Below, in pieces: positions 25,352 to 54,138 of a stretch of DNA of 64,000 nt (position 1 is the stretch's first letter; every line of letters begins with the position of its first letter). The notes under the pieces were generated by a model. It worked only from the letters and a program-made list of their open reading frames with translations, searched no databases and was not told the origin of the DNA. The translations under genes and the position numbers were made by a program. Source of the stretch: Psychrobacillus sp. NEAU-3TGS (GTDB lineage Bacteria > Bacillota > Bacilli > Bacillales_A > Planococcaceae); the NCBI RefSeq assembly GCF_029955155.1, contig NZ_JAPNOZ010000008.1:62001-126000 (forward strand), given 5' to 3'.

Positions 25352-25380
25352 TTGACTTGCATGTGAAATGATGATATATT
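25352..25380 (+). promoter_or_regulatory. Strong sigma-A promoter of the mutS2-like gene
   Basis: TTGACT at 25352-25357, 17 bases, TATATT at 25375-25380, directly after the EcsC stop. Transcription should start near 25387, leaving a leader of about 520 nt before the ATG at 25908. Confidence 0.8.
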
Positions 25381-25410
25381 GAAAATATTCTAATTAAAGG
25401 TGTGGTGAGT

Positions 25411-25434
25411 ATGTCGGTTGTAGGTATAAACTAA
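25411..25434 (+). CDS. Seven-codon leader peptide MSVVGIN
   Basis: An ATG with AAAGG ten bases upstream opens a 7-residue frame ending TAA. It begins about 24 nt into the transcript. Its codons 4-6 (GTAGGTAT, 25420-25427) are exactly complementary to ATACCTAC at 25520-25527, so a ribosome on the peptide would disrupt that pairing. Such leaders control antibiotic-inducible erm, ARE ABC-F and hflXr-type genes. Translation is inferred. Confidence 0.55.
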   Translation: MSVVGIN

Positions 25435-25440
25435 TTTAGT

Positions 25441-25518
25441 TTAATAAGGCTTTTAATAACTGGTTTTGTACTAGCTTATTAAGCGTGCCTTGTTTCACAA
25501 TGTTTAAGCAACATTGTG
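25441..25518 (+). promoter_or_regulatory. Leader RNA hairpins before the attenuator
   Basis: Two perfect stems follow the leader peptide: TTAATAAG / CTTATTAA (25441-25448 / 25475-25482) and CACAATGTT / AACATTGTG (25496-25504 / 25510-25518). The second ends just before ATACCTAC, which pairs with the leader-peptide codons, so mutually exclusive folds are plausible. Confidence 0.6.
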
Positions 25519-25583
25519 GATACCTACCTTAAGACTGCTTCCTTTTCCATATAATCGATTAACATAATGGTATGTTAAGACGA

Positions 25584-25620
25584 AGAGCGTGGTGGGATTT
25601 GTCCTGCTATGCTCTTTTTT
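25584..25620 (+). terminator. Intrinsic terminator inside the leader (attenuator)
   Basis: AGAGCGTGGTGGGA pairs along its full 14 bases (four G-U) with TCCTGCTATGCTCT around TTTG, followed by a T6 run. It lies about 200 nt into the transcript and about 290 nt ahead of the gene, so readthrough must occur for expression. This is the core evidence for attenuation. Confidence 0.75.
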
Positions 25621-25650
25621 CTATCCTATTATTAGTTAACGATCAAAAAT

Positions 25651-25797
25651 GCCTTGTGACGACCACAAGGCTGATGCCCGCAGGAGCTTTCTATCCATTT
25701 TTCGGTTTAAGCCGTAAATATGGAGAGGTAGGAGAGTTCTTGCGGGCATTTTCTAATTTCATTCAGTAGGGGTTTAAACCCTACTGAATGAAATTAG
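25651..25797 (+). promoter_or_regulatory. Distal leader with three nested or serial hairpins
   Basis: GCCTTGTG / CACAAGGC (25651-25671), ATGCCCGCA / TGCGGGCAT (25674-25682 / 25741-25749, followed by TTTTC, a possible second weak terminator), and a perfect 19-bp palindrome CTAATTTCATTCAGTAGGG (25753-25771) with its complement at 25779-25797 around a 7-base loop. The last has no U tract. No known riboswitch was recognised. Confidence 0.6.
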
Positions 25798-25835
25798 AGC
25801 CTCCGGCGGATGTCACAGATTTTGAAAGGAGTGAA

Positions 25836-25895
25836 TTGAGCAAACTCATTTCAAAATCTGGACGCAAATACGCCAAGGCGAATTTGATTAAATAA
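25836..25895 (+). CDS. Possible second leader peptide (19 aa, TTG start)
   Basis: TTG 25836 follows AAAGGAGTG and opens MSKLISKSGRKYAKANLIK, a basic peptide whose TAA overlaps the ribosome site of the mutS2-like gene. Its own ribosome site and start lie in the loop of a hairpin with perfect 12-base arms (CAGATTTTGAAA / TTTCAAAATCTG, 25816-25827 / 25849-25860). The layout suggests translational coupling. Whether it is translated is unproven. Confidence 0.4.
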   Translation: MSKLISKSGRKYAKANLIK

Positions 25896-25907
25896 GGAGG
25901 AATAAAA

Positions 25908-27812
25908 ATGAATAAGATGACCTTTGAAAAATTACAATATAACGAACTAAAGGAAATGGTGAAATCCCATTGCGTAAGTAGTTTAGGAAAAGAATTATTG
26001 GATAAGTTGCAACCGAGTACCAATAGTAAGGTTGTGAAAAATCGACTAAATGAGACGACAGAGGCTAGAAAACTACTGGATGCGGAAAGCCATCTCCCAT
26101 TAAAGGGGATTTCCAATATAAATTATTTGATGGAAAAGCTTGAAAAAGGGATGATTCTTGGTCCTTCTGAGCTAGTAGCTATTTCAGATTTTTTAAGAGG
26201 GTGTCGGGTGATAAAGAAGTTTATGTTAGGGAAGGAGTTTTTTGCTCCTGTCTTACATGCTTATGCATATTCGATGATGGAATTTCAAAGTATTGAAGAG
26301 GATATTAATCACTCGATTAGAGGGAATAGAGTCGATTCGGAAGCTAGCAAAGAATTAAAGCGAATCCGTAATCAAATGGCAAAAGCAGAAGAAAAAATAG
26401 AAGAACGTCTAAATAAATTTCTGAAAAGCAATGCGAACAAACAATATATTCAAGAATTTTTTATAAGCAAAAAAGATGATAGGTTTACGATTCCGATTAA
26501 AGCGTCGTATAAAAATCAAGTGGAAGGCACCATTATCGAAGCTTCTTCCAAAGGTTCTACAGTATTTATAGAGCCAGCTGCTATTTCTAAATTGAATGCT
26601 GAACTTGCTACTTTAAAGGCTGAAGAGTCAATGGAAGAATATCAGATTCTAGCTACCCTTTCAGGAAGCATTCTTGAGCAAACGAGCCAGATTAACATCA
26701 ATATCGAACTTATTGCTCAGTATGATATGATTTTTGCCAAAGCGAAGTTTAGTAAAACGATGGATGGTATAGAACCAAAGTTGAATGATCACGGGTACAT
26801 TAAGCTGATAAGCTGTATGCATCCACTTTTAACAGGAAATATTGTGCCTTTAGATTTTGAAATTGGAAAAGATTATCGAAGTTTAATCATTACTGGGCCC
26901 AATGCTGGGGGAAAAACAGTCGTGCTAAAAACGATAGGAATCCTAACATTGGCCATCATGTCAGGCTTTCATATAGCAGCAGCTGAAGGTACGGAGCTAG
27001 CAGTTTTCGATCAAATTTTTGTAGACATCGGGGACAATCAAAGCATTGAAAATTCCCTGAGTACATTTTCATCTCATATGAAAAACATATCTGAAATCAT
27101 GAATGCGTCGACGAATAATACGCTTCTACTTTTTGATGAAATTGGAAGTGGGACAGAACCGAACGAAGGAGCAGCACTAGCAATTGCCATACTCGAGGAA
27201 TTTTATCAAATGGGCTGTATGACGGTCGCAACCACTCACTATGGAGAGATTAAACGTTACTCGGAAATGCATAGTGACTTTATGAATGCTGCGATGCAAT
27301 TTAATAGCGAAGCATTAGAGCCTATGTATAAGCTTTTAATCGGCAAATCAGGTGATAGCAATGCACTATGGATTTCTAAGAAGATGAATTTGCGTGAAAA
27401 GGTGCTACAAAAAGCACAGCGTTATATAGAAAATAAAACGTATGACCTTGAGCGAGTAAGAGACAATAAAATAAAAAAACCAGTTCTAGTTGCGAACCAG
27501 GAAGAGGTAACATATGAATTTGAAGTAGGAGACAGAGTAAAACTAACTGAACTTGAGGAATTTGGTATTGTGTATGAGAAAAAAGATAATCATAATAATG
27601 TGTCCGTGTTTTATAAAAATGAAATAGTAAAAGTAAATATAAAGAGATTGCAACTGGAAGGAAAAGCAACCGATTTATATCCAGAAGGATATGACTTAAA
27701 TTCTTTGTTTGTTAGTTATGCAGAAAGGAAATTTCAACATGACATGGAAAGAGGTTCTAAAAAGGCATTGAAAAAAGTTTCAAAAGAAATAAAGAAAAGG
27801 CTCATTGAATAG
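25908..27812 (+). CDS. MutS2-like ATPase lacking the Smr nuclease domain
   Basis: 634 residues. The N-terminal half has the helical core/clamp arrangement of MutS2 (TFEKLQYNELKEMV; FFISKKDDRFTIPIKASYK; SSKGSTVFIEP). The ATPase carries Walker A GPNAGGKTV near residue 330, Walker B LLLFDEIGSGTEP near 405 and the ATTHYGEIK switch. A KOW-like segment FEVGDRVKLTELEEFGIVYEK lies near 525-545. MutS2 of Bacillus is about 785 residues and ends in an Smr domain; this protein stops just after the KOW-like part. B. subtilis MutS2 recognises collided ribosomes and can split them, so a ribosome role is more likely than mismatch repair. AAGGAGG precedes ATG 25908. The structured upstream leader suggests drug- or translation-responsive control. 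Confidence 0.85.
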   Translation: MNKMTFEKLQYNELKEMVKSHCVSSLGKELLDKLQPSTNSKVVKNRLNETTEARKLLDAESHLPLKGISNINYLMEKLEKGMILGPSELVAISDFLRGCRVIKKFMLGKEFFAPVLHAYAYSMMEFQSIEEDINHSIRGNRVDSEASKELKRIRNQMAKAEEKIEERLNKFLKSNANKQYIQEFFISKKDDRFTIPIKASYKNQVEGTIIEASSKGSTVFIEPAAISKLNAELATLKAEESMEEYQILATLSGSILEQTSQININIELIAQYDMIFAKAKFSKTMDGIEPKLNDHGYIKLISCMHPLLTGNIVPLDFEIGKDYRSLIITGPNAGGKTVVLKTIGILTLAIMSGFHIAAAEGTELAVFDQIFVDIGDNQSIENSLSTFSSHMKNISEIMNASTNNTLLLFDEIGSGTEPNEGAALAIAILEEFYQMGCMTVATTHYGEIKRYSEMHSDFMNAAMQFNSEALEPMYKLLIGKSGDSNALWISKKMNLREKVLQKAQRYIENKTYDLERVRDNKIKKPVLVANQEEVTYEFEVGDRVKLTELEEFGIVYEKKDNHNNVSVFYKNEIVKVNIKRLQLEGKATDLYPEGYDLNSLFVSYAERKFQHDMERGSKKALKKVSKEIKKRLIE

Positions 27813-27923: not shown

Positions 27924-28211
27924 ATGGATGAAAAAATGGGTGGTATTGAAGTTGGCGAAATTCTTACTGTGATGGATGAAGATAATCGAGAACAAGAAAT
28001 AGAAGTGATTGGCCTGTTAACGATTGAAGATAAGGAATATGCAGCGGTAGCATTTGCAGATGACGCTCAATCAGAAACGATAGATGAGGTAGATGTATTC
28101 TTTTTCCAAGTGATAGATGGAGAGGAATTAGCGGAAATAGAGACGGACGCGGAATTTGAAAAAATATCTGCAGCATTTTTAGAAGCTCAAGAAGCGGAAG
28201 AAGAGGAATAA
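27924..28211 (+). CDS. DUF1292 protein, copy 1
   Basis: 95 residues, strongly acidic. The pattern GEILTVMDEDNREQEIEVIGLLTIEDKEYAAV...VDVFFFQVIDGEE is the DUF1292 (YrzB-like) signature: a small beta domain of unknown function common in Firmicutes. AGGAGG precedes the start. A paralogue lies 0.6 kb downstream, with an opposite-strand gene between them. Confidence 0.85.
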   Translation: MDEKMGGIEVGEILTVMDEDNREQEIEVIGLLTIEDKEYAAVAFADDAQSETIDEVDVFFFQVIDGEELAEIETDAEFEKISAAFLEAQEAEEEE

Positions 28212-28822: not shown

Positions 28823-29104
28823 ATGGAACAAAATCAAGAGAAAATTAAAGTAGGACAAATTTTCACCGTGCTAGATGAAAACGATCAGGAGCAAGAAATG
28901 GAAGTGCTCGGATTGCTAACTGTTGAGAGTACAGAATACGCCGCTGTAGGATTCATAGAAGATATTCAATCTGAATCAGACGAGGATATTGATGTGTTCT
29001 TTTTCCGAGTAGAAGATGAGGAGCTATCGTTTATCGATACAGATGAAGAATTTGAAAAAGTATCCTTAGCATTTTCAAAATTAGAGGATGATACGATTTT
29101 ATAA
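28823..29104 (+). CDS. DUF1292 protein, copy 2
   Basis: 93 residues, acidic, clearly paralogous to the gene at 27924 (VGQIFTVLDENDQEQEMEVLGLLTVE, DIDVFFFRVEDEE). GAGGAGG precedes the start. A terminator hairpin GAAGGGCTT / AAGCTCTTC with T8 follows at 29110-29140. The function is unknown. Confidence 0.85.
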   Translation: MEQNQEKIKVGQIFTVLDENDQEQEMEVLGLLTVESTEYAAVGFIEDIQSESDEDIDVFFFRVEDEELSFIDTDEEFEKVSLAFSKLEDDTIL

Positions 29105-54031: not shown

Positions 54032-54138
54032 TTCTTATCAAGAGAAGCTGAGGGACTGGCCCTGAGAAGCTTCAGCAACCTGCCGAATAGGTTAGGTGCT
54101 AAATCCAGCAGACAACTAACAGTCTGAAAGATGAGAAG
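54032..54138 (+). ncRNA. SAM-I (S-box) riboswitch
   Basis: The conserved elements appear in order: TCTTATCAAGAG, GAGGGACTGGCCC, CTTCAGCAACC, AGGTGCTAAATCC, AGCAGA and GAAAGATGAGAAGG, with P1 formed by TTCTTATC / GATGAGAA. It senses S-adenosylmethionine and controls the following YitJ-MetH operon by termination. Confidence 0.95.

Follow-up and report, generated by a model that had tools for sequence, protein, structure and literature searches.

An upstream open reading frame and alternative RNA structures precede a Smr-less MutS2 paralogue: a candidate stall-inducible ribosome-rescue gene in Gram-positive bacteria

A gene for a Smr-less paralogue of MutS2 was analysed together with its leader in a 64,000-nucleotide stretch (the window) of the 4.42-Mb genome of Psychrobacillus sp. 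NEAU-3TGS (contig NZ_JAPNOZ010000008.1). The leader carries a seven-codon upstream open reading frame (uORF), the codons of which pair with a segment farther downstream. Judged from the sequences, ribosome stalling on the uORF very probably induces the gene, because the leader is conserved among relatives, the pairing covaries, release of the Shine-Dalgarno (SD) site is predicted in one of the two leader types (type B), and the leader is dedicated to this gene. The elements of the locus are listed below; A2 denotes an alignment of 19 leaders of the other type (type A), the type of the window leader.

25352–25380, + strand: promoter-like site, TTGACT (25352–25357), 17-nucleotide (nt) spacer, TATATT (25375–25380); read from the sequence, with similar sites seen by eye before orthologous leaders.
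25396–25402, + strand: SD-like site AAAGGTG of the uORF; read from the sequence, nearly invariant in A2.
25411–25434, + strand: uORF ATGTCGGTTGTAGGTATAAACTAA, with ATG at 25411 and 7 sense codons (MSVVGIN), of which relatives retain Ser2 and Val/Ala4.
25420–25427, + strand: segment 1, uORF codons 4–6, GTAGGTAT; partner of segment 2, with compensatory changes.
25496–25518, + strand: hairpin 5' of segment 2; 91.6% of A2 cells paired, two-sided change in 6 of 9 pairs.
25520–25528, + strand: segment 2, ATACCTACC; partner of the uORF (OFF) or of the 5' arm of T1 at 25591–25596 (predicted ON).
25559–25578, + strand: hairpin TTAACATA/TATGTTAA 5' of T1; 86.5% of A2 cells paired.
25584–25620, + strand: T1, intrinsic terminator with a 14-base-pair (bp) stem (25584–25597/25602–25615) and T6 (25615–25620); from the sequence and A2 pairing.
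25651–25671, + strand: small hairpin GCCTTGTG/CACAAGGC between T1 and T2; 72.7% of A2 cells paired.
25674–25752, + strand: T2, terminator-like hairpin ATGCCCGC...GCGGGCAT with a short T run; base paired in 94.6% of A2 cells.
25752–25890, + strand: copy of a dispersed structured repeat, a lineage-specific insertion between T2 and the gene; from genome-wide matches, absent from the leaders at L044, L046, L047 and L048.
25894–25900, + strand: SD site AAGGAGG of the MutS2 paralogue; read from the sequence.
25908–27812, + strand: Smr-less MutS2 paralogue, 634 amino acids (aa), with core/lever/clamp, MutS-type ATPase, KOW-like barrel (about 543–585) and basic helical tail (about 587–633).

The sequence GTAGGTAT (25420–25427) is fully complementary to ATACCTAC (25520–25527) over 8 bp, and 4 of the 14 pairs in the T1 stem are G-U. 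The first-pass annotation of this DNA had already named the promoter, the 7-codon frame, the 8-bp pairing, the hairpins and T1, all of which are present in the sequence; it overlooked T2 (25674–25752) and the repeat insertion (25752–25890). Another hairpin, at the uORF stop (25430–25441; 58.9% of A2 cells paired), was tested out of register and is not claimed. Between 25300 and 25960 no Rfam family matched above its gathering score, the leader giving sub-threshold low scores only at E-values up to 10, and at 7 type B loci the DNA ahead of the gene gave no match either. Since all Rfam matches there fall below the family thresholds, the leader is no known riboswitch.

Conservation of the uORF was assessed in two samples, namely the best 80 of 232 confirmed stretches (named orthologue loci) and 33 loci from the whole phylum. 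For the latter, the C-terminal 117 residues of the protein were searched in 398 genomes spread over the phylum, with matches in 30 genomes and in 24 of 267 genera; the sample comprises loci from 28 of the 29 non-window genomes (the one left out is a fragment) and 5 further loci, with proteins of 618–700 aa. A pattern requiring Ser2 located a uORF 289–574 nt upstream of the gene in 79 of the 80 named loci, and a looser look at the remaining one (L143) gave MSVLGSK at −504, so that a short Ser-2 uORF stands before all 80; the absence of a conserved leader from orthologues, which the first-pass annotation had named as one of the findings that would speak against its reading, is not what we observe. 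Under a strict rule (ATG or GTG start, Ser2, 6–11 codons ending in N, K, I or S, an SD-like tetramer, at most 520 nt from the gene) a uORF was found in 78 of the 80 loci, compared with the 1.1 that 20 rounds of dinucleotide shuffling would lead one to expect; the two misses have a uORF farther away than 520 nt (L067) or ending in Ala (L142). The same rule found a uORF in 18 of the 33 phylum-wide loci (0.95 expected from shuffles) and in none of 8 canonical mutS2 genes from 8 other genomes.

Type A leaders (25 loci; Psychrobacillus, Peribacillus, Cytobacillus and others) have a uORF of the form MS[VEGI][VA]G[IVM][NS], and in type B leaders (54 loci; Lysinibacillus, Priestia, Oceanobacillus, Paenibacillus, Gottfriedia and others) [MV]SAVGSK is commonest (23/54). 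Ser2 has a TCN codon in type A (25 leaders) and an AGY codon in type B (54 leaders), which argues for selection on the uORF peptide, although Leu takes the place of Ser2 at five distant loci. By inspection, which was not blind, a recognisable uORF was seen in 28 of the 33 phylum-wide loci, examples being MSVSVLN, MSEVVLN, MLGVVLN, MSESVIN and MSVLSVMVIIN; we take the Val-rich distant peptides to be reminiscent of macrolide arrest peptides. Relatives at 36–49% protein identity carry uORFs of similar kind. A uORF was present in 18 of 20 oriented relatives; of the two misses, one (G031) has a uORF as locus L222 and the other (G019) corresponds to the ambiguous locus L191. The uORFs and their pairings indicate that relatives of the gene in many Gram-positive bacteria share this kind of switch.

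In A2 the proposed OFF helices pair in 85.8% of cells, compared with 39.2–44.9% when slid by 1–3 columns; the leader structure put forward earlier therefore goes far beyond chance (at most 44.9% slid). Changes on both sides occurred in 25 of 67 pairs, and out of 500 shuffles not one reached the real number of paired cells, that of two-sided changes or the covariation score, while 8 reached that of pair types, which is the outcome of the comparison with orthologues that had been suggested as a check. The helix between segments 1 and 2 was paired in 99.3% of cells. Helices 6 and 7, which form T1, were paired in 95.8% and 94.4% of the cells with letters, with gaps in 4 of the 19 rows; T2 is retained in the leaders L079, L082 and L084, which show gaps at T1. 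In 2 of 19 type A and 3 of 26 type B leaders a change of GTA to GCA in the uORF (Val4 to Ala) goes with a compensating change of CTAC to CTGC. Pairing of segment 2 with GGTAGG in T2 was considered as an ON helix and is not claimed: 94.7% of cells pair, but shuffles matched the real values, 42 of 500 for paired cells and two-sided changes and 133 of 500 for the covariation score.

In type B leaders the partner of the uORF, ATGAAGATACCTAC (segment 2), is also complementary to the gene-proximal GTAGGTATCTTCAT (segment 3), with 12–14 Watson-Crick pairs out of 14 in 53 of 53 measured leaders (L124 and L143 stand outside the count) and compensated changes of CCTGC with GCAGG in 6 leaders. In the leaders sampled, segment 3 can alternatively pair with the SD region of the gene, and a terminator-like hairpin is also present in between. 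When the uORF was masked in folding predictions, to mimic a ribosome stalled on it, the mean pairing of segment 2 with the uORF fell from 0.70 to 0.00 and that with its downstream partner rose from 0.06 to 0.64; SD accessibility rose from a mean of 0.17 to 0.44, with an increase in 46 of 53 leaders. A frame in type B segment 2 (ATG AAG ATA CCT) was considered as a second open reading frame (ORF) and rejected, as it meets a stop in L102 and its kin and changes frame in L094. In type A leaders masking of the uORF in a transcript ending inside T1 increased the predicted pairing between the 5' arm of T1 and the region of segment 2 in all 18 leaders with a T1 motif, that of the window included; the motif is absent from 8 of 26 type A leaders. 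By these predictions type B is the clearer case of switching.

The leader thus has a short uORF under selection with its own ribosome-binding site (78 of 80 loci against 1.1 expected; Ser2 codons), a downstream segment that pairs with the uORF and has an alternative partner, and an intrinsic terminator (T1, T2) and/or a sequestered SD site (type B) as output. Judged from these features, it very likely acts as a ribosome-mediated attenuator.

The leader is also dedicated to the gene. Covariance model R1, made from the type B module, gave 8 matches in 299 genomes, 8 of 8 before a Smr-less MutS2 gene, and a type A model (R2) gave 15 matches in 151 genomes of the family, 14 of them before this gene, and 3 matches in 398 genomes of the class; strict filters were used in the large searches, and leaders of the same logic and different sequence would escape them. 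The fifteenth R2 match (G007) precedes a gene remnant of about six codons. In this genome, of the same genus, the leader has been kept and the MutS2 paralogue lost after these codons (L236/L238 on G007:C78).

A number of observations weigh against the proposed explanation. The equilibrium fold of the full-length window leader keeps T1 and T2 whether or not the uORF is masked, and the antiterminator appears only in the window transcript truncated inside T1; antitermination at T1 is not seen by equilibrium folding of the full leader and is retained as a kinetic model, which rests on co-transcriptional folding. Attenuators usually depend on folding during transcription. The T1 arm GGCGGG of some leaders (e.g. 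L068, L069, L074) precludes the full six pairs between segment 2 and T1. For type B, segment 3 was chosen as the best consensus match within the last 110 nt, and own partners scarcely exceeded exchanged ones (means of 13.19 and 13.06 of 14 pairs), so that the helix between segments 2 and 3 is conserved rather than strongly covarying; in 7 of 53 type B leaders SD accessibility did not rise upon masking of the uORF. On inspection no uORF was seen in 4 of the 33 phylum-wide loci (L193, L196, L204, L216), L191 being ambiguous, and the 8–14-nt downstream complements that are frequent at phylum-wide uORFs are given without a shuffle control. As R1 and R2 derive from leaders of this gene, the two models are biased toward such leaders. 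The HflXr leader has an RLR-type motif, and the uORFs described here have none. Finally, a quick tree of 57 rows (five near-copies left out, L058 represented by a 796-aa MutS2 ORF, the longest ORF there being 845 aa) placed the Smr-less proteins on one side of a branch with a support of 30, by which a single origin is neither shown nor rejected.

The protein matched the NCBIfam model TIGR01069 (mutS2) with 607.3 bits, above the cut-off of 400, over profile positions 2–521 of 790; the first-pass annotation had described a MutS2-like protein of 634 residues without Smr domain. The Smr domain was not found: the TIGR01069 match stops at 521, Pfam searches of 43 members (E up to 0.1) yielded no Smr family, and the motif LD[LVI][RH]G is present in 0 of 53 Smr-less rows versus 7 of 8 canonical MutS2 proteins. 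Walker A was recognised by pattern in 52 of 53 Smr-less rows, the remaining row reading GLNTGGKT, and the DE of Walker B in all 53, in four of them as DEMASGT. The KOW-like part consists of five predicted strands (543–585; predicted local distance difference test of about 86–89), and 3 of 43 members gave a match, a weak one, to the MSSS family. Contrary to the earlier statement, the protein continues beyond this part with a conserved basic tail of about 45 residues. Structure searches gave a match to 7qv3 with 38% identity to B. subtilis MutS2, the lists from Foldseek and VIA-align being dominated by the core domain. Searches of Pfam and NCBIfam with the protein (E up to 0.001) gave only MutS or MutS-like ATPase families, without homology to the HflX GTPase. 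The closest named relative is a protein of Psychrobacillus lasiicapitis (98% identity).

In B. subtilis the ATPase of MutS2 splits disomes and stalled ribosomes, deletion of the gene leads to sensitivity to chloramphenicol, tetracycline and erythromycin, and a Walker B change also confers erythromycin sensitivity, the KOW or Smr mutations costing little erythromycin tolerance (PMC10897456). By analogy, the Smr-less MutS2 is probably a ribosome-rescue factor. We propose that during normal translation of the uORF segment 1 (codons 4–6) would pair with segment 2 (ATACCTAC in the window), the terminators would form downstream, and transcription would end near 25620 or 25752. A ribosome held on the uORF would cover segment 1 and leave segment 2 free; in type A leaders segment 2 would then pair with the nascent 5' arm of T1, resulting in antitermination, read-through and synthesis of the MutS2 paralogue, and in type B leaders it would pair with the SD-sequestering sequence, so that translation would be switched on too. 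The product would split or remove stalled ribosomes by its ATPase, like canonical MutS2 but on demand. The on-demand rescue factor is the best explanation, because the paralogue keeps the ATPase and a predicted KOW-like part and would be made only upon a stall on the uORF. The inducer would be a ribosome-targeting antibiotic, which we consider likely, with slightly less assurance than the rescue role; attenuator, rescue role and antibiotic induction taken together we still favour, less firmly than each part.

That translation-blocking antibiotics or stress induce the gene and that its product acts on ribosomes had been suggested in the first-pass annotation. This interpretation is supported in part: the sequences bear out the leader (uORF, pairings, conservation, dedication to the gene) and the intact ATPase motifs, and from these we infer that stalling is what signals, that antibiotics cause it and that the protein splits ribosomes.

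The order of core/lever/clamp, ATPase and predicted KOW-like part is that of canonical B. subtilis MutS2 (PMC10897456), which differs in having the Smr domain; the canonical genes of the 8 other genomes also lack such a uORF (0/8). HflXr is the nearest precedent in logic and vmlR the nearest in leader layout. HflXr of Listeria (lmo0762) is likewise a resistance-linked paralogue of a splitting factor that is spread over Firmicutes and controlled by an attenuator with a small ORF, alternative RNA structures and a terminator; it is, however, an HflX-family GTPase with a 14-aa RLR leader peptide, whereas we describe a MutS ATPase with a peptide of about 7 aa and no RLR, and drug induction, proposed for the Smr-less MutS2, has been demonstrated for HflXr (PMC6310831). 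The vmlR leader of B. subtilis, with a uORF in the anti-antiterminator, a terminator and an SD-hiding hairpin, has the type B layout; its uORF is a tripeptide and its gene product an ABC-F protein, and the likeness is one of layout (PMC9226507). In toiL-topAI of E. coli a very short uORF has downstream-pairing codons as well, and toiL senses several drug classes, but the system governs a toxin-antitoxin operon in a proteobacterium, unlike the MutS2 gene (PMC12121999). As segment 1 spans uORF nt 10–17, segment 2 would be released by a ribosome held on nearly any codon, and the switch could, like toiL, respond to several drugs. Plants also have a Smr-less MutS2 (MutS2A) alongside a full-length one, in a separate lineage; the passages of PMC12292046 at hand mention no leader of such kind. 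Our literature search, with most subscription journals outside its coverage, returned no report of a MutS2 leader or of a bacterial Smr-less MutS2 paralogue. A known regulatory logic is thus encountered on a protein family for which we found no report of it.

The same attenuator might instead sense translation distress in general (slow initiation, shortage of amino acids or ribosomes, collisions), antibiotics being one trigger of several. Segment 1 lies inside the footprint of a ribosome at almost any uORF codon, such that any stall would suffice; the leaders are found in many environmental species, and vmlR is induced by translation defects as well (PMC9226507). On the other hand, the uORF lacks the single-residue run typical of amino-acid attenuators, and most uORFs preserve Ser2 and Val/Ala4, which suggests a specific nascent peptide. 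We judge general distress unlikely as the account of the switch, yet it is the most serious alternative. An autoregulatory circuit, in which the uORF stalls ribosomes unaided, the Smr-less MutS2 clears them and the switch closes once the protein suffices, would fit a product from a ribosome-splitting family and leader models that match this gene only (one of the 15 R2 matches being a remnant). The uORF peptides, however, differ widely between clades, and we know of no drug-free arrest motif in them, which also counts against such a circuit; it is improbable.

Two further alternatives concern the protein. A MutS2 of DNA recombination behind a leader of unrelated purpose would agree with the database annotation 'endonuclease MutS2' and with the MutS fold common to mismatch-repair proteins; with no Smr domain found, a KOW-like domain predicted and a leader coupled to translation, we regard it as very improbable. 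Still less credible is a reactivase ATPase of an aminomutase of the KamC type, the second-best NCBIfam match, which scored 225 bits, below its cut-off of 300 and far from the 607 bits for mutS2.

Full-length Smr-less MutS2 proteins (47–48% identity) are also encoded in three records that bear an Enterococcus or Listeria phage label but are neither annotated nor verified (L154, L155, L156; OR846605, OR846885, PQ520363), with a uORF VSVVGI or VSVAGI; these records are probably host DNA. A Cytobacillus spongiae plasmid record (L159) carries a distant member (39% identity) with uORF MLGVVLN, and upstream of it, in opposite orientation, a gene for an ABC-F family ATPase (690 bits on PRK15064, below the cut-off of 762). 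A check for plasmid linkage matched 16 records, none of them at 60% identity or more. The canonical mutS2 frame of the Psychrobacillus genome (G000:C3:384151-386498; L031, L033) stops after about 632 aa near an A run, before the KOW and Smr parts; the interruption is an assembly error or real, and the close relative G006 has an open frame of 791 aa.

The dispersed repeat before the gene (GCCTCCGGCGGATGTCACAG..., about 140 nt, structured) gave 30 BLAST matches in the genome, a count that includes its own copy, its own inverse and several part-copy matches. The leaders L044, L046, L047 and L048 have no such copy between T2 and the gene; the repeat was therefore inserted late and does not belong to the switch. 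Among its 14 best other copies (L002–L015), 10 (L003–L005, L007–L011, L013, L014) end about 11–41 nt before an ORF of the same sense by a crude ORF rule, the distance to one is 58 nt for L012 and 34 nt for L015, and L002 and L006 do not precede one; the repeat appears to favour 5' untranslated regions, and some copies have inserts in the middle. Downstream of the MutS2 paralogue are two small DUF1292 genes (27924–28211 and 28823–29104) with a small opposite-strand ORF in between. Elsewhere in the window (54032–54137) an ordinary S-adenosylmethionine riboswitch (RF00162) scored 93.9 bits.

The leaders found across Gram-positive bacteria suggest an unrecognised gene family that is induced when ribosomes are blocked, for example by antibiotics. 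We consider it as likely as not that the Smr-less MutS2 proteins bearing the conserved basic tail make up a class of inducible factors for ribosome rescue and intrinsic tolerance throughout Firmicutes, a MutS2 counterpart of HflXr marked by dedicated attenuators. The basic tail, which takes the place of the Smr domain, may turn the ATPase away from collided ribosomes and toward single stalled ones. The finding bears on what purpose the Smr domain serves in MutS2 and on the further ribosome splitters inferred in B. subtilis (PMC11633108). Fused to a reporter, the uORFs would offer a ready read-out of the drugs or stresses sensed by the cell. If the proposal is true, many genes labelled 'endonuclease MutS2' or 'DNA mismatch repair protein MutS', the database labels of the named members, would need rereading, and a MutS ATPase would join the ABC-F proteins and HflXr as an inducible clearer of blocked ribosomes.

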